The translations under genes and the position numbers were made by a program. Shown in pieces: positions 176 to 45,841 of a stretch of DNA of 64,000 bases; positions within the stretch are counted from its first letter, which is position 1, and every line of letters begins with the position of its first letter. The notes under the pieces are model-generated. The model saw only the letters and a program-made list of their open reading frames with translations. It did not search any database and was not told where the DNA came from. Origin of the DNA: a virus; IMG/VR virus record IMGVR_UViG_3300046736_000122, positions 1-64,000 of that record, one strand, 5' to 3'.

Positions 176-441
176 GCGACGCCGGCCAGCGCGAGGATGG
201 CCCACACCCAGAAGGCGCTGGAGATGAGCGACGCAACCGCATAGGCGGGCGTGATCTCGATAGAGCGCCCGACTATGGCGACGGTGAACACGCGGTCGAT
301 GGCGAGGTACGCGATGAGCACGAACGCGATCCAACTCATGACGCCGCCGCGACGATCTTTGCGATGCCCGATCGCGCGGCTAACACCTGCGGCGTGGGCG
401 CGGCGGCGGGCGTGGCGACGCTTGCGCTGCTTGATCGTCAC
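172..441 (-). CDS. Small membrane protein with basic N-terminus
   Basis: An 89-residue ORF whose GTG start overlaps the TGA of the pentapeptide-repeat gene (GTGA). The first 35 residues are very basic (KQRKRRHARRRAH). The remainder, from MSWIAFVLIAYLAID, has two hydrophobic stretches that could be membrane helices (about residues 37-55 and 65-87). An internal ATG at 339 would give a 55-residue membrane-only protein; neither start has a Shine-Dalgarno. Function unknown; as the middle gene of this operon it may accompany the repeat protein. Confidence 0.6.
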   Translation of the reverse strand: MTIKQRKRRHARRRAHAAGVSRAIGHRKDRRGGVMSWIAFVLIAYLAIDRVFTVAIVGRSIEITPAYAVASLISSAFWVWAILALAGVA

Positions 442-1316
442 GACGCTCCCCCAGCGAACGCGGCCGTCAGCCGCTTCCGCGACTCGCGCCACTCGGCAAT
501 CCAGCGGGCCGCGAGCCCGGCGCGGAACTGGCCCTCGCGTTCCGGCTCGTCGACGGGCTCGTCGCCCGGGTGGATCGGCCCAAACCACAGCTCCGCGAGC
601 CGGCCGCCGTCGGGGTCGATGTGCTCAAGGTCGGTGTACGCGCAGCCGCGGACCTGCGCGATCGTGCCGACGAGGCAACGGCAGGCGCCCTCGTACGTTG
701 ACCCGTCGATCCGGCCGCTGGTGATGGCGTCCAGCAGGCCGGCGACCTCGGCGGGCGCCTCGTCTAGGATCGCCCATAGGTCGCTTCGCGTGGTGTGGAG
801 GGGATGCCGGTGGTCGCTTGCGTCGTCGCGCAGGTTCGCGCCGAGCAGGTTCGCGCCGAGCAGGTTCGCGCCGAGCAGGTTCGCGCCGCGCAGGTCCGCG
901 CCGAGCAGGTTCGCGCCGCGCAGGTTCGCGCCGCGCAGGTCCGCGCCGCGCAGGTCCGCGCCGAGCAGGTTCGCGTCGAGCAGGTTCGCGCCGAGCAGGT
1001 TCGCGCCGCGCAGGTTCGCGTCGAGCAGGTTCGCGCCGCGCAGGTTCGCGTCGAGCAGGTTCGCGTCGAGCAGGTTCGCGCCGCGCAGGTTCGCGTCGCG
1101 CAGGTTCGCGCCGAGCAGGTTCGCGCCGAGCAGGTTCGCGCCGCGCAGGTTCGCGCCGCGCAGGTCCGCGCCGCGCAGGTTCGCGCCGCGCAGGTCCGCG
1201 CCGCGCAGGTTCGCGCCGGCCACGACGCCTTGCTCAAGAGCGTGCCGCACATCGCGTGCGTCCGTCGCTGTGTACAACACGGTCCCGTCGTAGTACCGCT
1301 TGATCTCGATCGTCAT
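438..1316 (-). CDS. Pentapeptide-repeat protein
   Basis: A 292-residue protein. Residues about 1-35 form a short N-terminal module (MTIEIKRYYDGTVLYTATDA). Then come about 26 near-perfect A(D/N)LxG pentapeptides (NLRGA, DLRGA, NLLGA, NLLDA), which in this family fold as a right-handed quadrilateral beta-helix. The last 130 residues are non-repetitive. ATG 1316 was chosen over an upstream TTG because GGAGG lies 8 nt before it. Known relatives include DNA-mimic gyrase inhibitors or protectors (Qnr, MfpA), but most are uncharacterised, so a gyrase or anti-defence role is only inference. It is the first gene of a minus-strand operon behind a conserved extended -10 promoter. Confidence 0.93.
   Translation of the reverse strand: MTIEIKRYYDGTVLYTATDARDVRHALEQGVVAGANLRGADLRGANLRGADLRGANLRGANLLGANLLGANLRDANLRGANLLDANLLDANLRGANLLDANLRGANLLGANLLDANLLGADLRGADLRGANLRGANLLGADLRGANLLGANLLGANLLGANLRDDASDHRHPLHTTRSDLWAILDEAPAEVAGLLDAITSGRIDGSTYEGACRCLVGTIAQVRGCAYTDLEHIDPDGGRLAELWFGPIHPGDEPVDEPEREGQFRAGLAARWIAEWRESRKRLTAAFAGGAS
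830..1219. repeat. 15-bp tandem repeat array coding for pentapeptides
   Basis: About 26 back-to-back 15-bp units (plus strand CAGGTTCGCGCCGAG and single-base variants) with no spacers. Each unit is one pentapeptide codon block of the minus-strand repeat protein. The DNA identity is higher than protein constraint demands, which suggests recent expansion by slippage or unequal recombination. Confidence 0.95.
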
Positions 1317-1342
1317 TGTGGATTCCTCCAAGTCGAATGGAC

Positions 1343-3412: not shown

Positions 3413-3639
3413 GCCGCCGCGCGCGCACCTTCGTAGCCGGCTACCTCGTCATCGGACTGGCCGGTTCCGCGGCTCGTCGTGTCGGCTGGGAGGAGGACGG
3501 TCGCCGCAAGCAGGTGCGGTTCCCGCGCTGGATGATCCGGGTCAGGGCGCGTGTCGTCTTGGCCGCGCGGCGTGTGCGGGCCGTGGCGAAGGGTGGCCGC
3601 GCGGGGTTACTCGTGCTGCTGCTGCGGCAGGGACAGTAA
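3409..3639 (+). CDS. Basic membrane-associated protein, end of lysis cassette
   Basis: A 76-residue protein with a hydrophobic segment near the N-terminus (TFVAGYLVIGLAGSAA), a basic middle and a hydrophobic tail (RAGLLVLLLRQ). The GTG start overlaps the previous stop. This topology and its place at the end of the lysis genes make it the best holin candidate here, but no holin family motif is evident. Confidence 0.5.
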   Translation: MSRRARTFVAGYLVIGLAGSAARRVGWEEDGRRKQVRFPRWMIRVRARVVLAARRVRAVAKGGRAGLLVLLLRQGQ

Positions 3640-3677
3640 GCCAGTGCACGCATCTGCCAACCAAGGAGGAAAACGAC

Positions 3678-3863
3678 ATGTCAACGAATCTCACGCTGGA
3701 GCCGTCTAGACATTCGTCGAGGCGTTGTCTGCCGCGTCGAGCCGGACGGGTCGCGCGTCGTCGTTCACCCCTACATCGATCCGAAGACGCACGCGGTGAT
3801 GCAGCTCACCGACGCGGAGGCGCGAGCCCGATCGCTTCACTGAGGAGCTGCGGCCCGCGCTAG
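3678..3863 (+). pseudogene. Small gene with apparent frameshift
   Basis: A strong ribosome-binding site (AAGGAGGAAAACGAC before ATG 3678) starts a frame reading MSTNLTLEPSRH that then becomes Arg/Ser-rich. The +1 frame downstream reads far more like protein (VVCRVEPDGSRVVVHPYIDP, then KTHAVMQLTDAEARARSLH and a stop at 3841). A single-base indel near 3700-3730 would join the good start to the good frame. Either the gene is broken, the assembly has an indel, or frameshifting occurs. GTCTAGAC lies at the presumed break (3704-3711). Confidence 0.5.
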
Positions 3864-3982
3864 CATTGCGGCGGGTGCCTCCACCATCTACCAGCGGGAC
3901 GCCGGGACCCGAGCCATCACCCGCGAATAGGGCGGCTGAAGAAGGCGAAGCAAGCGAGAGCCGTCCTTCGGGGCGGCTCTCG
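3861..3982 (+). other. Candidate small transcript between a -10 box and a terminator
   Basis: A CTAGCATTGCG element (3860-3870), shared with the promoter region at 26114, is followed about 90 bp later by a strong TTCG-loop terminator. No convincing coding frame lies between. The span could make an RNA of about 110 nt, or it may be the tail of the broken gene upstream. Low certainty. Confidence 0.25.
3955..3982 (+). terminator. TTCG-tetraloop hairpin terminator
   Basis: An approximately 12-bp stem (CGAGAGCCGTCC / GGGCGGCTCTCG) closes a TTCG loop and is followed by GTCGTTCCGG. An almost identical architecture, with the same GTCGTTCC tail, occurs at 27678. It separates the lysis cassette from the early region. 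Confidence 0.75.
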
Positions 3983-4209
3983 TCGTTCCGGGGGCCGCGC
4001 GGTGCGACCCGGACCTCGCTCCGAGGGAGAAGCGAGATCCGGGCTGTAGCCGCACCCGACCGGGTCTGTCGCCGTGATGTTGCCGCGGGGAAGAACACGC
4101 GGCCGGCGACACCCGCGCTGCGAAAGCTAGCAGACCACGGGTTGCGCCGCTAGCCATGATCGTGCTAGGTTCTGCCGCGTAGCCTGCAACCGATCGAAGG
4201 GACCCACCG
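3983..4209 (+). promoter_or_regulatory. Intergenic region with class A promoter (4164-4184)
   Basis: About 230 bp without a credible gene. Near its end TGCTAGGTTC is followed by TGCCGCGTAGCC, matching the extended -10 element seen at 1343, 29033 and 33110. A TTGCGC hexamer lies 18 bp upstream of TAGGTT as a possible -35. GAAGGGACCC before ATG 4210 may act as a weak ribosome-binding site. An imperfect inverted repeat (CCGGACCTCGCT / AGCGAGATCCGG) occurs around 4009-4045. Confidence 0.6.
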
Positions 4210-6792: not shown

Positions 6793-7151
6793 GCGCTTCC
6801 GAGGACACTGCGATGGCCGCGCGGCTCACGATGCTCGTCGACCATCAGATCCAGGGCCGCCCGATCGCGGTCCACATCAGCCGCGCAATGGAACGCCGCC
6901 TGGTCCGCCACGGCGAATCCGTCAACCGGGACATGCCCGACGATCCGCTGAACCTCAACCATGACGGCGATCTCGCGATCATCCTGCTCGGCTGCGCGGA
7001 CGAAGGGCTCCGCGCCGGCGAATCGGATGACGGGGTGTGGTCGGCGCTGGATGGCCGCTCGTACGAGTTGCCGCGGCCGGTGCGGGCTCCGTGGCGGATG
7101 CGGCTCGGGATTGCCGCGCGCGCCGCGATCACCGCTTGGCGGGCATCGTGA
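6789..7151 (+). CDS. Hypothetical protein
   Basis: 120 residues, MSASEDTAMAARLTML at the start. A GTG six nucleotides upstream is an alternative, but ATG 6789 makes the usual ATGA overlap. It contains an RMGxSVNxDMPDDP-like segment and a basic C-terminus. No recognised family. Confidence 0.7.
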   Translation: MSASEDTAMAARLTMLVDHQIQGRPIAVHISRAMERRLVRHGESVNRDMPDDPLNLNHDGDLAIILLGCADEGLRAGESDDGVWSALDGRSYELPRPVRAPWRMRLGIAARAAITAWRAS

Positions 7152-7399
7152 GCGCGCTCCGGGACCTTGGCCTCGCGTCGGGCAATCCGATCACCATCGA
7201 TGTCGTCCCGTGGAAAGGCGTCAAGCTCGCCATCGCCGACCACCTGACGAAGCCCTGCTCGGATGGCCGCGCATCCGTAGCCGAGCGTGTCGCCACCGCT
7301 CACGGCCTGCCGCACGACCTTGTCCTGATCGCAGTGCCGCGCGGCAAGGGCAAGGCGATCGTCCGCCGCCTCGCGGACGGGGAGGTCGTGGCACGATGA
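7148..7399 (+). CDS. Hypothetical protein
   Basis: An 83-residue protein with a GTG start overlapping the previous stop. It is basic at the C-terminus (RGKGKAIVRRLADGE), with an alternating beta-type pattern (LVLIAVPRG). It lies directly before the exonuclease and may be an accessory of recombination; no family recognised. Confidence 0.65.
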   Translation: MSALRDLGLASGNPITIDVVPWKGVKLAIADHLTKPCSDGRASVAERVATAHGLPHDLVLIAVPRGKGKAIVRRLADGEVVAR

Positions 7400-8796
7400 C
7401 CGCGGCAATCGAAGAGCGCCCCGCATGGCGTTGCACAGCATGCCTGAAGGTGGCGAACAGCATCGCGCGGCCACCGTTTCATCGACGCAACGGGGAGCGG
7501 TGCCCCGGCGTGTTCGAGGCCGCGACGATTGCACCGGACGGCGCGGTGGTGGTTACCGGGCCCGAGCGCGAGACGTTGCGCGGCGAGGTCGTCGACCCTG
7601 CCTTGCGCTACCGGGTGACGCGGCTGCGGACCTACGCCACCGAATGCCCGCGCTCCACAGTGCTCGCGTCGCAGTTGACGACCGGTGCCCTCGGCACGAG
7701 CGGTGACCGCGGCTCGCTGCTGCACGCGGCCATCGCGGAGATTCTCCGCACGCTCTGGCGCCATGGAGAGCCACGCTTCGAGCGCACTGAGGACGCGATA
7801 GCGGTGCTGCGCGAGGTCGCCGCGCGCTCGCCGCATGTGGTGACGGCCGCGGACATGTTCGGCTCGCGCAACCCGGACGGCACGATCGCGCAGTCCGGCC
7901 TCGTGCAGATGATCGGATCGTTCGCGCAGGAAGTGTGGCAGCCACGGCGGTTCATGCTTATCGAGGGCGCGCCGCTGCCGTTCGAGGCTGAAGGCCGCCT
8001 CACCATGCCGGTGCCCTGTCCGGACGGCGAGATCCGCACCCTCTCCGGACAGCCCGATCTCGTCGTCGCGTCGCCTCCGTCGACCTGCGTGATCGTCGAC
8101 CACAAACAGTCCATGGCCAAGCCTCGCACGCCCCGCGAGCCCGTGCCCGAGGGCGAACCTATCCGCGGCATGGAGTACCTCACAGACCCCGCCGGCGACT
8201 ACGAGCAGTTGTGCGGATACACGGCCCTCGTGATGCACGCTTACCCGGCGGTGCAGACGGTCATCGGGCGCGAGAAGAACTGGCGCTACGGCGGCCCGTA
8301 TCGCGAGGTCGTGCTGACCCGCGACTTCGTGACCGAGCACGTGCTGCCGCACCTCGCGGCCACGATGATGAAGCTCGACCGCGGGCTGCGGGAGGGGGAG
8401 GGCTCGGAGTATGCGCAGCCGCGCGCGTGCGCGGCTTGTCTGAACCGTTGCAGCGTCAAGAGGTCGTGTTCGATCCCGGCCGAAGAGCGAGGTGCCGGCG
8501 CGCTCGACACCGACGAGGCCGCGGACGCCGAGGCTGCGCGGTGGGTTGTCGTCCGCGCGCTCGAGCCCGAGCAGCGCAAGGCGTTCAAGGCCTACGTGGC
8601 CGAGCGTAAGCGCAACCCGCAACTGCCCGACGGCCGCGAGGTCCGCTGGGATGGCGAGAAGCCCAACCGCAAGTTCGGCGTGTTCCCGGTGGCCGTCATG
8701 GATGCCGAGGCGGCTGCGCGTGACGTTGCGATGGATGAGGCGTACATGGCGCAGTGGGCTGCCGAGCTTGAGGCGCGTAAGGCGGCGATCACATGA
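7396..8796 (+). CDS. PD-(D/E)XK exonuclease, Cas4/RecB-like
   Basis: A 466-residue protein. An N-terminal CTAC ... C knuckle is followed by GDRGSLLHAAIAEIL (the conserved G-x-LH motif), then LSGQPDLVVASPP and CVIVDHKQSMAKP, which supply the D and DHK residues of a RecB-type nuclease core. CAACLNRCSVKRSC near residue 350 is a Cys cluster placed like the iron-sulphur ligands of Cas4/AddB. It probably makes 3' single strands for the RecT-like annealase encoded upstream. ATG overlaps the previous stop. Confidence 0.85.
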   Translation: MTAAIEERPAWRCTACLKVANSIARPPFHRRNGERCPGVFEAATIAPDGAVVVTGPERETLRGEVVDPALRYRVTRLRTYATECPRSTVLASQLTTGALGTSGDRGSLLHAAIAEILRTLWRHGEPRFERTEDAIAVLREVAARSPHVVTAADMFGSRNPDGTIAQSGLVQMIGSFAQEVWQPRRFMLIEGAPLPFEAEGRLTMPVPCPDGEIRTLSGQPDLVVASPPSTCVIVDHKQSMAKPRTPREPVPEGEPIRGMEYLTDPAGDYEQLCGYTALVMHAYPAVQTVIGREKNWRYGGPYREVVLTRDFVTEHVLPHLAATMMKLDRGLREGEGSEYAQPRACAACLNRCSVKRSCSIPAEERGAGALDTDEAADAEAARWVVVRALEPEQRKAFKAYVAERKRNPQLPDGREVRWDGEKPNRKFGVFPVAVMDAEAAARDVAMDEAYMAQWAAELEARKAAIT

Positions 8797-29150: not shown

Positions 29151-29617
29151 GCATCTACGCCACGTGGCTGTCCCTGAGCGCCGACGATCACGAGGACGGC
29201 TGCGCGGTCTACGTCGAGGATCCGCCCGGCTCGCACTGCTTCGAGTTCAGCGGCAAGCCGTGCGATTGTGGCACGCCGCGAGCACCACTCGTCTACGAGG
29301 GCTCACACGTGCTGCCGTCGAATGCCGATCGCCGTGGCGGGTGCATCGACGTGGCCGGGATACCGGACTTCATCGAGCGCGACGGTCGCGACGACGCCAA
29401 GGGCTCGGGGCTGAAGGATTGGCTACGGCTGTCTGTGATGAACGAGGAGTCAACGCTGCAGTACGAGGGCAAGTCATACGTGCGTGGCGGCGACGCGGCC
29501 GTGGTGTTGGATCGCCGTGGCGTAGAGGAACTGCGCGACACGCTGACAGCGTGGCTTGACCGCGAGTCGATACCAGACGAGAGGGAGTGCCCCGAGTGTG
29601 TCGAGGCGCGACAGTGA
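29147..29617 (+). CDS. Hypothetical phage protein
   Basis: A 156-residue soluble protein (MSIYATWLSLSADDHEDGCA). The segment LQYEGKSYVRGGDAAVVLDR and VEELRDTLTAWLDR resembles short phage proteins of unknown role. GTGA-coupled to tnpB downstream. Confidence 0.72.
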   Translation: MSIYATWLSLSADDHEDGCAVYVEDPPGSHCFEFSGKPCDCGTPRAPLVYEGSHVLPSNADRRGGCIDVAGIPDFIERDGRDDAKGSGLKDWLRLSVMNEESTLQYEGKSYVRGGDAAVVLDRRGVEELRDTLTAWLDRESIPDERECPECVEARQ

Positions 29618-30783
29618 ACCGCTGCTACCGCTTCAGGATCTACCCGACCGCCGCGCAGGCCGCCTCCCTCGATGTCCAACTCGGTGCGTGCTGCGATCTC
29701 TACAACGCCGCGCTCGAGCAACGCATTCGCGCGTACCGCGAGCACGGCGTCTCGCTCACCCGCTATGACCAACATAAGGAACTGACGCAAGTTCGTGCGG
29801 CGGGCCTGTTGCCCGCCGATATGAGCGTGTTGGCGCAACGCAGCGCCCTTGATCGCCTCGACCTTGCAATGGCAGCGTTCTTTCGGCGTGTGGCAGCAGG
29901 GCAGACGCCGGGGTTCCCACGCTTTCGCTCGCGTTCTCGCTACGACTCAATCACATGGCCCGATGGCTTGGGCGCAGGCATAAGGAACGGCCGAGTAGGG
30001 CTGCGCGGTGTCGGTTCGGTGCGTGTTCGGTGGCATCGCGAGATCCCCGACGGAGCGGACATCCGGACTATCACGGTCAAGCGCTCGTGTGGCCGGTGGT
30101 ATGTCATCGTTGCGGCTCGTGTGTGCGATCTAGTGCCGAAGCCGGCGACGGGCCGCAGTGTCGGCGTCGATCGTGGCGTCAGCATCCCCTACGCGCTCTC
30201 GACGGCAGCGCTGCTTGAAGGGCACGTGCGCAGCCCGACCACTGTTCGTCGCTGCCAGCGAAAGGTGACAAGGCGTCAGAAGGGCTCAGTTCGCCGCACC
30301 AAAGCGATACGTCTGCTCGCGCGGCAGCGTGAGCAGGAGGCCAACCGTCGCCGAGACTACGCGCACAAACTCAGTCGGAGCCTCGTCAACGACTTCGATC
30401 TGATCGCATTCGAGGATCTGAATGTCGGTGGAATGACGCGCTCGGCTCGCGGTACCGTAGCCGCGCCTGGCCGCAACGTTCGCCAGAAGGCTGGGCTGAA
30501 TCGCGAGATCCTTGACCAGGGATGGTCACTTCTGCTTCAACTGACGACCTACAAAGCGGAAGAAGCTGGTAGGCACGTCGTTCTCGTCAACCCGGCGTAC
30601 ACGTCGCAGACGTGTCATGTATGCGGGCTGAACGACAGGGCGTCGCGTCGCGGCGTGCTCTTCCGCTGCACGGGCTGCGGCCACGAAGACCACGCTGACA
30701 TCAACGCGGCTAAGAACATCGAGAGGGCCGGGCTGGCCCTTCAGGCGTCAACGGTAGGAGAAGAAGTCCATGCCGTCGCCTGA
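29614..30783 (+). CDS. tnpB: Stand-alone TnpB (RNA-guided RuvC nuclease)
   Basis: A 389-residue protein of normal TnpB length. The N-terminal recognition part begins VNRCYRFRIYPTAAQAASLD. The RuvC catalytic triad is visible as GVDRGVSI (D), AFEDLNVGGM (E) and DHADINAAKNIERAG (D); the zinc ribbon is CHVCGLNDRASRRGVLFRCT then GCG. TnpB normally cuts DNA with a guide RNA read from the 3' end of its element. There is no TnpA transposase next to it, and its GTG overlaps the stop of the preceding phage gene, so it seems domesticated into the operon. Confidence 0.92.
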   Translation: MNRCYRFRIYPTAAQAASLDVQLGACCDLYNAALEQRIRAYREHGVSLTRYDQHKELTQVRAAGLLPADMSVLAQRSALDRLDLAMAAFFRRVAAGQTPGFPRFRSRSRYDSITWPDGLGAGIRNGRVGLRGVGSVRVRWHREIPDGADIRTITVKRSCGRWYVIVAARVCDLVPKPATGRSVGVDRGVSIPYALSTAALLEGHVRSPTTVRRCQRKVTRRQKGSVRRTKAIRLLARQREQEANRRRDYAHKLSRSLVNDFDLIAFEDLNVGGMTRSARGTVAAPGRNVRQKAGLNREILDQGWSLLLQLTTYKAEEAGRHVVLVNPAYTSQTCHVCGLNDRASRRGVLFRCTGCGHEDHADINAAKNIERAGLALQASTVGEEVHAVA

Positions 30784-41957: not shown

Positions 41958-42148
41958 CGCGGCTGCGGGAGGTCGGCAAGGGGCTGTTCTACGGCCTCGC
42001 TCCGTGGTGGCTGTACGAGCGCGAGTGCCACTACGCCGGCTGGTCGTATCGCGAACATCTCGCTGAGAATCTGCGCCTCGCGTGGCGATGGGCGACGTGG
42101 CGCGAGACGAAGGGCGACCGCGAGTTCGCCGCCGAGGCATCCTCGTGA
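41954..42148 (+). CDS. Hypothetical Trp-rich protein
   Basis: 64 residues on GTG (MTRLREVGKGLFYGLAPWWL) with several Trp/Tyr. Coupled to the portal gene by GTGA. Unassigned. Confidence 0.6.
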   Translation: MTRLREVGKGLFYGLAPWWLYERECHYAGWSYREHLAENLRLAWRWATWRETKGDREFAAEASS

Positions 42149-45100
42149 CCACCCGCCGGCTCGACCTCGCCGCCGCGGCAGCCAACGTCAAGGCCGCGGC
42201 CAGCGGCCCCCTCGACCAGAAGTCAAGCGTCTTCCCCGAACTCACCGGCTTCAGCGGACTGCCAGGGTGGTCGTACTTCATCCCGCAGGAACGCGAACTC
42301 TCCGAGGCATGGCGTGGCCGCAAGCGTCTCGAAACGGTCGACGAGATGCTCAACCACTATCAGGTGGCAGCGTGCTGGCAGGCCGTGCGGTTGCCGGTCC
42401 ACCGGTACGTCATTGAGCTTGCGCCGCGCCGCGCGAACATCGTCGACGCTGACCTCATCGCCTCGGACCTCGATGTCCCGCTGCAAGGCCACGAGGACAC
42501 ATCAGACCGCGATCGTGACGAGGAGGACTTCAGCCAGCGCCGCCACCTCGACCGCGCACTGGACGCCGTCACGATCGGCCACGCGGTGTTCGAGCAGGTC
42601 GGCTACATCGACCAGGCCGGCACGTGGCGGCTACGCGATCTCGCGCCGGTGCCGCAGTGGACGCTCGACGACGCGTCGTGGAAGGTAGACAAGCACGGCA
42701 AGTTGCTGGAGGTCGTGCAGTATGGCGCGACACCGGAGGTGCGCATCCCGGCCGATCATCTCGCCGTGTTCACGTGGCAGGGGGCACCGGGCGACTTCCG
42801 CGGACGGTCGATCCTCAGGCCGTTGACGGCGCCGTGGATGCTGTCGGACCGCGGGATGCGCGTGACGGGGATGGCGATGGAACGCACCGGCATGGGGATC
42901 CCGGTCGGCAAGGTCGGGATGGGCGCCGGGGTGCAGGCCAAGCAGGACATGGAACGGCTGCTGCGCAACCTCGCGGCCGGCGAGAACACGAACCTCGTGC
43001 TCGAAACGGACGAGGACATTCAGAAATCGATGATGCTGATGGGTGTCACGGGCTCAACCCCGGATCTCGTCGGGATCCTGCGCCACTGGGATGAAGCGAT
43101 CGCCCGCGCGATGCTCGCGTCGTTGCTGCAACTCGGGTCGACGGAGACGGGTAGCCGCGCGCTCGGCGAGACGTTCGACGACCTGCTGTCGATGTTTCAC
43201 GACACGGTCGTCACGTGGTACTGCGACGCGATGAACCGGCTCGTGCGGCTGTGGATGATTCGCAACCGTGGGCCGGATGCGCCGCGACCGATGCTTGTGT
43301 GGAAGCGCCGCGACGACGAGGGCGTGCCAGCACCCGCTCCCGCCGACACGCCACCCGTTCCCGCCGGCCCCACGCCCGTGGCAGCCAAGCGCCGCCCGAT
43401 GACCGCCGCGGCCCGCCACGAACGCAAGGCGAAGGCGACACGCACCGCGTTCGCTCAGGCCGCCGGCCGGGACCTTCGCCGCGACCCGACCCCGGCCGAG
43501 CTCGCGGCGGGCACCGACTTCTCACGGCTCGAGCGCGAGCACGTCGCGGCGAGAGAAGACCTCGCGGCGGTGTTGCTGCGCGAGCGCGATGACCTCGCCG
43601 CGCGCGCGGTCGAGATCATCGCCGCGATGCCGACCGTCGACCCGCTCACGTTGGGTGCTGTTCTCGGCCCGCAGCTCGCCGGTCACGCGGCCGGGATGGA
43701 CACTGGTCCGCTCGTCACGCTGCTCGAAGCATCGGCCGCGCAAGGCCAGGCGCAGGTGGTCGCGGAGGCGGCCACGCAGGGCGTCACGATCACGCCCGAC
43801 GTCGACTACGCGGCGCGCGCGGCCGTCGAGGCGAACGAGCTTCAGCGCCGCATGGCGGTGCAGGTGACGGAGGCGTGTGCGGCGGCGGCGAAGACGATCG
43901 TTCCTGCCGCGCCGGCGGTGCGGGCTCGCCGCGGCTTCATGTCGAAGCTTCGCCCGCCCGCGCGGCTGGCAACGATCGAGGCGGGCACGATCGAGGACTT
44001 TCTGTCGTCGCTGTCCCCCGCCGCGGCCGAACAGGCTGCGGCGGGAGCGACATCGAGGGCGAACGGTGGCGGACGGTTCGGCGCGATCGCGTCCGCGCCG
44101 ACGCAAGCTGTCTACGCAAGCGAACTGCTTGACGAGAACACGTGCGTCGCTCCCGACGCACTCGTGATGACGGCTGAAGGCGAGAAGCCGGCTGCCGAGA
44201 TCACGCTACGGGATCGCCTCCTCACGCACGCAGGGCGGTACATCGCACCATCGGCCATCGTGCCGTCAGATGCGAAGGGTGAGCTGGTCCGGGTGCTGGT
44301 AGGGGGTCGCACGCTTCGGGCGACGCCCGACCACCGCGTGCTTGTCGTCCGGGGGAATAGCCTCGCCTGGCGCGAGGCGGGCGAACTGCTCGTGGGCGAT
44401 CTCATGGTCAGCGAGGCGACTGCGCAGACGGGCAGCGAACCCATCAGCCATGATGTCCGACTCGGGGATGCGCCACACGGTGAGCCCCCGCGACTCAAGG
44501 TCGGCGGTTTTGCGCCGGTCAGCATCGGGCCGCAGCGAGTGCCAGTAGGTGCCGTCCGCTTCGATGACGACCGCGCCGAGGAGGAAGTCCACGACCCACG
44601 GCCCGACCTGGGCCTGGGCGGTGTGGCGCAGGCGCGCCACTTCAAGGATCTCGCGGACGACGCGCTCGATACTCGTCTCGGCATCGCTGGCGACGTAGCA
44701 TCGTCGCGAGCAGTACCGCTTGCGCGACTCGGCGGACGGCACTATGCGGATGGTCTTCCCGCAGTGCTGACAGTCGATAAGGACCGGCGGCCTACGGCAG
44801 GCTTCGCAGCAGTGACGGCGCGGCGTCTTCCGCCCGTGGCGGAAGGGGGCCCCGCATCGCTCGCAGGTTGCGTCGCGTCCACGGTGGGCGTTCGAGCAGG
44901 CGCGGGTGCAGTAGTTGTAGCGAGGCGCGTTGGACGCGGGGATGTCGAAGTTCGTTCCGCATCCGACGCATGTCTTCGTCACGCGGTGGCGTGGGCGGCC
45001 CGGGTAACTCGCGTGGTCCTTAGAGCGACAGGCGTGCGAGCAGTACTTGGCCCTACGTCGTTGTCTGCCAGTGATCTCGGCGCCGCATCGCTTACAGATC

Positions 45101-45480
45101 GGCGTGGGCCGATGAGCGTTCCGGCTTGTCCACCGTGCGACCGCGGCACAAGATCTACAGCGCTGACCGGTGACGACGGGCTTGCCGCAGTCCATACACG
45201 TCTTGTCCATAAGAAGATGGTACTAATGCGCGTGGACGCGACGACGGTCACGCGATACGTGGGTCGCGTCTTCGACTTCACGATCCCCGGCGATCACACG
45301 TTCTTCGCGGAAGGTGTCCTTGTGCACAACTGCGGCCCGTGCGCGGATGTCGACGGCCGCGAGTACGAGTCGATCGAGGACGCGATGCTGGACTATCCGA
45401 GCCTCGGCGGGTTCTTCGACTGCGAGGGCGGCGAGCGTTGTCGCGGGACGGCGGTTGCCGTGTTCGAGGGCGAGGTCTAG
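42145..45480 (+). CDS. Portal protein (Mu gp29-like) fused to MuF-like domain, interrupted by an intein
   Basis: 1111 codons. Residues 20-420 match DUF935/Mu-type portals (LPGWSYFIPQERELSEAWRG, GDFRGRSILRPLTAPWMLSD, ALGETFDDLLSMFHDTVVTW). After a Pro-rich linker and a helical region comes a MuF-like ending, split by the intein: ELLDENT before it and CGPCADVDGREYESIEDAML with CEGGERCRGTAVAVFEG after it. Portal plus MuF in one chain is unusual. Removing the 396-residue intein leaves about 715 residues. The portal forms the DNA channel at one capsid vertex. GTG 42145 overlaps the previous stop. Confidence 0.9.
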   Translation: MTTRRLDLAAAAANVKAAASGPLDQKSSVFPELTGFSGLPGWSYFIPQERELSEAWRGRKRLETVDEMLNHYQVAACWQAVRLPVHRYVIELAPRRANIVDADLIASDLDVPLQGHEDTSDRDRDEEDFSQRRHLDRALDAVTIGHAVFEQVGYIDQAGTWRLRDLAPVPQWTLDDASWKVDKHGKLLEVVQYGATPEVRIPADHLAVFTWQGAPGDFRGRSILRPLTAPWMLSDRGMRVTGMAMERTGMGIPVGKVGMGAGVQAKQDMERLLRNLAAGENTNLVLETDEDIQKSMMLMGVTGSTPDLVGILRHWDEAIARAMLASLLQLGSTETGSRALGETFDDLLSMFHDTVVTWYCDAMNRLVRLWMIRNRGPDAPRPMLVWKRRDDEGVPAPAPADTPPVPAGPTPVAAKRRPMTAAARHERKAKATRTAFAQAAGRDLRRDPTPAELAAGTDFSRLEREHVAAREDLAAVLLRERDDLAARAVEIIAAMPTVDPLTLGAVLGPQLAGHAAGMDTGPLVTLLEASAAQGQAQVVAEAATQGVTITPDVDYAARAAVEANELQRRMAVQVTEACAAAAKTIVPAAPAVRARRGFMSKLRPPARLATIEAGTIEDFLSSLSPAAAEQAAAGATSRANGGGRFGAIASAPTQAVYASELLDENTCVAPDALVMTAEGEKPAAEITLRDRLLTHAGRYIAPSAIVPSDAKGELVRVLVGGRTLRATPDHRVLVVRGNSLAWREAGELLVGDLMVSEATAQTGSEPISHDVRLGDAPHGEPPRLKVGGFAPVSIGPQRVPVGAVRFDDDRAEEEVHDPRPDLGLGGVAQARHFKDLADDALDTRLGIAGDVASSRAVPLARLGGRHYADGLPAVLTVDKDRRPTAGFAAVTARRLPPVAEGGPASLAGCVASTVGVRAGAGAVVVARRVGRGDVEVRSASDACLRHAVAWAARVTRVVLRATGVRAVLGPTSLSASDLGAASLTDRRGPMSVPACPPCDRGTRSTALTGDDGLAAVHTRLVHKKMVLMRVDATTVTRYVGRVFDFTIPGDHTFFAEGVLVHNCGPCADVDGREYESIEDAMLDYPSLGGFFDCEGGERCRGTAVAVFEGEV
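44143..45330 (+). mobile_element. Intein in the portal-MuF gene
   Basis: Block A begins at Cys 667 (CVAPDALVMTAEGEKPA), block B is GGRTLRATPDHRVLVV (TxxH), block F is VGRVFDFTIPGDHTFFAEGV and block G is VLVHN followed by Cys +1. These are the residues needed for standard splicing: Cys1, the TxxH histidine, the penultimate His with terminal Asn, and Cys +1. Between block B and block F the sense frame runs through about 270 low-information residues that are the complement of an antisense endonuclease gene. The insertion site is the conserved Cys motif of MuF. Confidence 0.88.
44266..45210 (-). CDS. Vsr/EDxHD-like homing endonuclease antisense inside the intein
   Basis: A 314-residue protein. 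Residues 1-165 hold five or six Cys-pair zinc fingers (CMDCGKP, CKRCGAE, CVGCGTN, CERCGAP, CQHCGKT, CSRRCY). Residues 170-280 form a Vsr/DUF559-like nuclease: ETSIERVVREILEVARLRHT, then VGPWVVDFLLGAVVIEADGT, YWH and LTVWRIPESDI. Its codons are exactly in register with the sense codons, and its C-terminal codons overlap the block B coding region. Zinc fingers ahead of a Vsr-type domain are typical of homing nucleases. An A/T-rich pocket with TAGTAC precedes its ATG. Confidence 0.85.
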   Translation of the reverse strand: MDKTCMDCGKPVVTGQRCRSCAAVARWTSRNAHRPTPICKRCGAEITGRQRRRAKYCSHACRSKDHASYPGRPRHRVTKTCVGCGTNFDIPASNAPRYNYCTRACSNAHRGRDATCERCGAPFRHGRKTPRRHCCEACRRPPVLIDCQHCGKTIRIVPSAESRKRYCSRRCYVASDAETSIERVVREILEVARLRHTAQAQVGPWVVDFLLGAVVIEADGTYWHSLRPDADRRKTADLESRGLTVWRIPESDIMADGFAARLRSRLADHEIAHEQFARLAPGEAIPPDDKHAVVGRRPKRATPYQHPDQLTLRI

Positions 45481-45487
45481 TCCAGGT

Positions 45488-45841
45488 CTAGACCGGGCCG
45501 CCGCCGTACCGTTCGTGCGCGGCTTGCTTGCTGATTCGAAGGGCCGCGCCGACCTGCGCCCATGACGCGCCTTGCGCACGGGCTTCGGCGACGAGTCGCG
45601 CCGCGCGAGCTTCTACGGCCTCGCGCTCGCCGGGGATCGCCATGAGTTCGGCGAGCGGGGAGGGCGCCGGGTCTGAGGCCGCCGTCACGATCGTCGGCCG
45701 CTCTCTCAACTTCTCGAATGTCTGTGAGGCAACGACCATCGGCGTGGGCACCGTTTCGGCGTTGTCCACCAGGCAAACCGATGGCGAGTCGAAGACCCGG
45801 CCGCAACCCGGACAGACGTGCAAGATCACCGGCTCAGGCAT
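45488..45841 (-). CDS. Zinc-finger plus helix-turn-helix regulator
   Basis: 117 residues. CPGCGRVFDSPSVC gives a small zinc site. The C-terminus LVAEARAQGASWAQVGAALR then ISKQAAHERYGG is the helix-turn-helix typical of high-GC actinobacterial regulators and is related to the ending of the protein at 38254. AAAGGGGGG stands about 10 nt upstream of ATG. Third gene of the minus-strand unit whose promoter carries operators, so it may regulate it. Confidence 0.75.
   Translation of the reverse strand: MPEPVILHVCPGCGRVFDSPSVCLVDNAETVPTPMVVASQTFEKLRERPTIVTAASDPAPSPLAELMAIPGEREAVEARAARLVAEARAQGASWAQVGAALRISKQAAHERYGGGPV

Follow-up and report, generated by a model that had tools for sequence, protein, structure and literature searches.

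How a homing endonuclease gene can lie within an intein on the opposite strand and leave the host protein uninterrupted is the question raised by a locus in the virus record IMGVR_UViG_3300046736_000122, a sequence of 73,276 base pairs with a guanine and cytosine (GC) content of about 68%, of which the first 64,000 nucleotides (here called the window) were analysed. In this stretch, a portal-MuF gene contains an intein, and the strand opposite the middle of that intein encodes a nuclease of 314 amino acids. Claims of long antisense overlaps between prokaryotic genes are contested, since open frames alone prove little. The locus is nevertheless very probably a composite mobile element, in which a self-splicing intein at the CxxC site of a portal/MuF gene carries a homing endonuclease gene in antisense orientation and in exact codon register, a reading to which the anatomy of the locus, its recurrence, the avoidance of particular codons, the strand on which each part is coded and an empty insertion site all point at the level of sequence.

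The portal-MuF gene (42082..45480, plus strand) is a single open reading frame of 1132 amino acids with no stop anywhere, the MuF-type part lying at the C-terminus of a portal protein (Portal_Mu PF06074, E 1.5e-32; phrog_113 portal, 7e-47). Its N-extein (42082-44142) and C-extein (45331-45480) enclose an intein of 396 codons (44143..45330, plus strand; PF14890, Intein_splicing, E 1.5e-11), and the first-pass annotation, which had placed an intein with all its splicing residues in this gene, gave coordinates that proved exact. The in-frame insertion, blocks A, B, F and G and the catalytic residues of a class 1 intein are all present, with Cys1 at 44143, a TxxH motif at 44323-44334, the His-Asn pair ending at 45330 and Cys+1 at 45331; Cys1, TxxH and HN are invariant across 14 aligned inteins, and Cys+1 is found in the window and 13 relatives. 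At the termini, TIGR01443 matches the C-terminal end and TIGR01445 matches the N-terminal end below its curated cut-off. In the AlphaFold model, the N-terminal HINT half with blocks A and B (44143..44433, plus strand) has a predicted local distance difference test score (pLDDT) of 91-97 over residues 1-90 and is confident to about residue 97, and the C-terminal half with blocks F and G, ending in VHN (45211..45330, plus strand), reaches 91-96 over residues 361-396 and is matched by Foldseek to mini- and split inteins. Protein splicing of this intein is thus predicted; a search of the window against Rfam found no intron or other RNA.

The antisense gene (44266..45210, minus strand) encodes a zinc-ribbon/EDxHD (Vsr-like) homing-type endonuclease, in which several cysteine-rich modules are followed by a C-terminal Vsr-like domain. 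It matches DUF559 (1.8e-6) and zinc-ribbon 'HNH endonuclease' PHROGs, while the family profile finds as its best solved structure the catalytic domain of the homing endonuclease I-Bth0305I (PDB 3r3p, E 6.6e-16), with which a Foldseek search of the nuclease model (mean pLDDT 83) agrees (5e-5, TM 0.82). The EDxHD catalytic domain comprises residues 178-273 (44392..44679, minus strand), as delimited by three family alignments and the PDB profile match, and has both the Vsr-like fold and the conserved acidic and histidine residues of this class, including the core E-A-D-G-T-Y-W-H at 44539-44562. Site-specific cleavage and homing by this protein may be expected from these likenesses. The first-pass annotation had also proposed a Vsr/EDxHD-type nuclease here, in codon register with a sense frame open across it, and the DUF559 and I-Bth0305I matches support that description.

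The geometry of the two frames is simple. They share codon boundaries (45208-44143 is divisible by 3), an arrangement referred to here as register 0, and therefore a sense stop can arise only where the nuclease uses TTA, CTA or TCA, as had been supposed from the start. Register 0 is favoured, because each of these conflicting codons has a synonym; the other antisense registers are disfavoured because, by the genetic code, their conflicts come from pairs of neighbouring residues and are not all avoidable. The C-terminal intein half, starting at about 45211, adjoins the nuclease start at 45210, whereas the 3' end of the nuclease gene runs under the N-terminal half. Between the limits of the two AlphaFold models, folded nuclease and folded intein half overlap on both strands for 29 codons (44347..44433), and the part of the nuclease opposite block B (44269..44346, minus strand) is a C-terminal tail of 26 residues (289-314) predicted to be disordered (pLDDT < 50). 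The suggestion that neither gene can be lost cleanly because the nuclease overlaps block B is not supported: the overlap falls in this disordered tail, and one relative, L120, has lost its nuclease and kept its intein. There (3555-4058, minus strand) a mini-intein of 168 amino acids, its sense frame open, faces a remnant of 73 antisense nuclease codons in register 0, which on sequence grounds is a fossil: an internal deletion took away most of the nuclease while the intein was retained, as the homing cycle predicts.

This layout is not confined to the window. Relatives were gathered by close searches, by a scan of viral contigs for the motif E[VA]DGxYWH and by further queries, yielding at least 217 loci; the close searches first gave L002, L004 and L008 with the same layout, then L015 and L016. 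Hidden Markov models of the two intein halves were run on all stop-to-stop fragments in six frames, so that cases were not picked by openness; the models were trained on open cases, yet each half was detected separately. Among the matches listed, 17 of 173 distinct nuclease open reading frames lie antisense between an N-terminal and a C-terminal half, and two more (L115 and L168) are nested antisense with one half cut off by the contig end, bringing the count, a lower bound, to at least 19 loci with the window included. Register 0 occurs in all 19, and the sense frame is stop-free between the halves in all 17 complete ones; no antisense nuclease in another register, or with a sense stop between the halves, is present among these matches. 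Both orientations occur, since a further 19 nucleases are flanked by intein halves of their own strand. The antisense overlaps span 250-360 codons in distantly related loci, one of which belongs to the genome of Gordonibacillus kamchatkensis VKM B-2647 (L037). This locus was also the sole strong full-length match in a search of 399 genomes, the weaker loci from which were unscreened for nesting, and annotated phages and plasmids gave distant relatives only, those examined being without intein nesting. As the layout recurs in independent contigs and in a bacterial genome, an assembly artefact is very unlikely.

Two loci carry a pair of inteins in one MuF gene. In L109 both inteins have antisense register-0 nucleases, and the second (7104-8060, minus strand; antisense open reading frame 7140-8069, plus strand) faces a nuclease of another architecture, helix-turn-helix (HTH) plus Vsr-like (MTES_1575, 5e-5, below the family cut-off), with no blocking codon among its 49 leucine and serine codons. 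In L073 (8509-12048, minus strand) one intein has an antisense-nested EDxHD nuclease and the other a sense-fused one.

The evidence that the sense frame is kept open lies in the codons themselves. The blocking codons TTA, CTA and TCA were counted in each nuclease and compared with the expectation from the codon usage of its own contig (15 genes with 909 leucine and serine codons for the window). The 18 intact nested nucleases contain none, against 86.8 expected, with a summed log10 P of -47 that overstates the number of independent trials, as the nested members share ancestry. The effect is clearest at low GC: in L102 (32% GC) 20.8 blocking codons are expected and none is observed (P 3e-17, with its own usage taken from only 54 codons), and non-nested nucleases of the same GC class use blocking codons for 50% of leucine and serine; for L037 (49%) and L072 (56%) the probabilities of finding none are 1e-5 and 2.5e-4. 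Altogether, the layout is intact at 32%, 49%, 51%, 52%, 55% and 56% GC. Each gene would be expected to hold about 4 to 21 blocking codons at such compositions, and therefore continuous sense translation must be selected. Blocking codons are present in all 29 close non-nested relatives, and the other two sense-strand registers over the nested nuclease stretches contain 5 to 30 stops each in every case. Selection thus keeps blocking codons out of the nested nucleases.

Conservation by codon position indicates which strand codes where. Of 91 pairs of nested nucleases, 90 have their lowest conservation at antisense codon position 3 (position means 0.465, 0.520 and 0.334), whereas in the intein halves the lowest falls at sense position 3, in 77 of 78 pairs for the N-terminal half and 72 of 78 for the C-terminal half; the coding strand therefore switches at the borders. 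AlphaFold agrees with this division, modelling the halves as folded and the sense middle (44434..45210, plus strand) as disordered, with a pLDDT of about 25-43 and about 27 over most of its length, so that both lines place the code of the halves on the sense strand and that of the middle on the antisense strand, leaving the sense middle as a linker, the stop-free mirror translation of the nuclease gene. Near-identical copies of L102 show no difference in 834 positions of the nested gene and at most 9 in 5166 of the flanks, a polymorphism too sparse to be informative.

Several points weigh against reading the locus as an active composite element. Besides the shared ancestry of the nested members, the window nuclease has no blocking codon among 31 leucine and serine codons when only 1.6 are expected (P of none 0.19), and for the window alone the open sense frame could be chance and gives no proof of selection. 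Expression of the nuclease is putative, because no sigma-70-like promoter was recognised in 44100-45600 and no clear Shine-Dalgarno sequence upstream of the nuclease ATG at 45210; nor did a search for an antisense terminator at the nuclease return a convincing candidate. Finally, splicing, cleavage of MuF alleles, antisense expression and homing are predicted steps. With regard to ancestry, the nested nucleases are mostly 25-55% identical and their contigs differ in codon usage, and shared descent does not alter the conclusion. The first-pass annotation had attributed the open frame to the rarity of TTA, CTA and TCA at high GC and had asked whether their absence goes beyond chance: rarity is enough for the window and fails for the family, while absence beyond chance is found in the family and not in the window. 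The view that the nuclease is real and the open sense frame a meaningless accident of base composition, which could also appeal to the many long antisense open reading frames in this GC-rich DNA, is extremely improbable, as it is refuted for the family by the intact register-0 loci of lower GC (L102, L037, L072 and others) and by the fact that none of the 29 non-nested relatives is free of blocking codons. Equally little credence can be given to the converse idea of a functional domain in the sense middle, with the antisense frame as its shadow; the sense frame is always open and some middle peptides recur (VPVGAV / MPVFAI), but these peptides come from reading the EADGTYWH core in reverse complement, conservation tracks the antisense codon positions, and it is the antisense product that folds and matches I-Bth0305I, so that a sense domain was rejected.

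A different arrangement, in which the nuclease would split the intein into halves translated apart and joined by trans splicing, deserves mention since the same nuclease superfamily has been linked with split inteins, EDxHD nucleases reportedly accompanying fractured genes and split inteins (as Dassa is said to have described in 2009), and the nuclease occupies the same place, between blocks B and F. It is nonetheless very improbable: a split intein has two open reading frames, each joining an extein to an intein half, whereas one uninterrupted frame, stop-free and in phase, runs through all 17 loci with both halves, and trans splicing needs no continuous translation, yet blocking codons are purged. 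It is less far-fetched, although still unlikely, that the nuclease is no longer active, being a relic or a passenger that plays no part in homing today, or acting only through a regulatory effect of an antisense transcript on the portal gene; the unrecognised expression signals and the decay seen in L120 would fit this, while the retention of EDxHD and most zinc-ribbon residues among nested nucleases 25-55% identical, the strong constraint on codon positions and the intact frame in the window argue for function.

Under the composite-element reading, the sense messenger RNA would be translated straight through the nuclease gene, giving HINT-N, an arbitrary disordered linker of about 260 residues and HINT-C, and splicing would remove intein and linker together to restore portal-MuF. 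The nuclease would be made from an antisense transcript and would cut intein-free MuF alleles, whose repair would copy the whole element. In principle, any nuclease could be encoded in register 0 without stopping the host protein, and parasite, intein and essential host gene would all stay intact.

The insertion site fits this cycle. The window intein is inserted before the first Cys of the CGPC motif of MuF (45331..45342, plus strand), and most nested inteins stand before the same MuF CxxC. As is expected of an intein, intein-free alleles exist at the same site in Arthrobacter phages: the joined window exteins align through the junction with the MuF-like gp5 of Arthrobacter phage Chubster (49% over 84 amino acids), where the site is empty. 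Host genes vary, with Phage_Mu_F in L102 (3e-10), a weak prohead protease match in L008 and another gene in L037. Free-standing relatives of the nuclease also lie on the opposite strand, tail to tail with intein-free MuF genes, in L003, L005, L006, L121, L137 and L172; a nuclease already antisense beside its presumed target would be a simple reason for the orientation, along a putative route from that state into the intein. The free-standing gene of L121 has only two blocking codons, codons 247 and 252 out of 258, which looks like a recent departure from the nested state. A nuclease tree of 27 rows, in which branches are long and just five forks are well supported, intermingles free-standing with nested members, and its well-supported branches force at least three changes; a first tree of 125 short domains was poorly resolved, and in the intein tree the row L073s, which joins halves of two inteins, was ignored. 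Nesting has thus probably been gained or lost repeatedly, judging from these sequences. It seems likely, with less assurance than for the window itself, that register-0 antisense nesting offers homing endonuclease genes a general route into inteins, one invented repeatedly, with several origins, no fewer than two nuclease architectures (zinc-ribbon EDxHD; HTH plus Vsr-like) and several phage structural genes as hosts, and that it defines a distinct class of composite elements, with selfish gene and stop-free linker on opposite strands and a purged-codon signature that can be searched for in genomes.

Some further observations concern neighbouring cases. In the Mycobacterium phages Techage, KilKor, Seagreen and Malithi (L162-L165), two pieces of a DNA methyltransferase gene have between them, in antisense orientation, a distant relative of the nuclease (at about 2900-3760 in L163-L165). 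The register-0 open reading frame facing it carries the label of hypothetical protein (Malithi gp54, Techage gp59) and is probably the nuclease's shadow; L162-L165 showed no intein halves on either side, and Rfam gave no intron or other RNA for L163-L165. Apart from the nuclease, KilKor gp53, a DNA methyltransferase (L163 5186-5446, minus strand), holds an N-terminal intein half (CLTDDVEVLTPTGW...). Elsewhere in the window, an open reading frame at 29587-30783 (plus strand) resembles by eye a TnpB/OrfB-type transposon protein with a C-terminal zinc ribbon (CHVCG...CTGCG), and a pentapeptide-repeat-like protein (A-N-L-R-G / A-D-L repeats) is encoded at 438-1331 (minus strand), with the opposite strand open too (364-1293).

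Several known systems share parts of this design. In bifunctional inteins of the PI-SceI type, whose nuclease insertion site has been reviewed (PMC6801210), the HINT halves, blocks A, B, F and G and a homing-type nuclease at the canonical B-F site are alike; those inteins, however, unite endonuclease and HINT in one polypeptide, while here the nuclease is on the minus strand, outside the intein polypeptide, needs its own transcript and faces a disordered sense middle. The closest idea is the ShiLan domain, a hidden out-of-frame HNH endonuclease in a 'third frame' of phage DNA methylases, without a splicing domain (PMC11855218), where the host frame likewise reads without a stop, as a disordered sequence, across a selfish nuclease; it differs in frame and in nuclease type, with no mention of the antisense strand, whereas the present elements combine antisense register 0, EDxHD, a complete intein with its HINT domain and codon purging. 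Nuclear group I introns of Didymium also carry homing endonuclease genes antisense to a self-splicing element, and these are expressed there (PMC9548176), but such introns are excised at the RNA level, where no open frame is required, while an intein must be translated, which imposes coding on both strands. I-Bth0305I (3r3p) and the CapR-like/EDxHD homing nucleases reported in 2025 in phage group II introns (PMC12350094) have a Vsr-like catalytic domain after a row of DNA-binding modules, a likeness that for the CapR-like nucleases is one of description, and none is reported antisense within an intein in the papers compared. In collaborative homing, a free-standing nuclease and an intron without an open reading frame share a target (PMC3984707), and the free-standing relatives beside intein-free MuF genes represent a plausible precursor state of this kind, with a presumed shared target, although the end product here is antisense nesting in an intein. 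Published antisense nesting of a nuclease in an intein was not found in the literature compared, outside which stands the split-intein study of Dassa et al. 2009, and neither a survey of mycobacteriophage inteins (PMC5050341) nor a review (PMC7765530) contains the antisense-nuclease terms looked for in them. The first-pass annotation had known of no such nesting; this stands for published descriptions, but the layout itself is not unique, given at least 18 other loci and one second-intein case. The architecture is real, recurrent and selected, an intein-homing endonuclease element in a novel layout, the novelty being judged without Dassa et al. 2009.

For the annotation of such genomes there is a warning here, in that the sense translation appears as a giant portal protein while the nuclease is hidden on the other strand. 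This set of overlaps lets selection for openness be measured, with a coding constraint that changes strand at defined borders. Should splicing proceed as predicted, about 260 arbitrary residues at the endonuclease site are tolerated by natural inteins. The intein homing cycle would be extended by a route through which a nuclease gene may enter an essential protein without breaking it, its expression uncoupled from that of the host protein.

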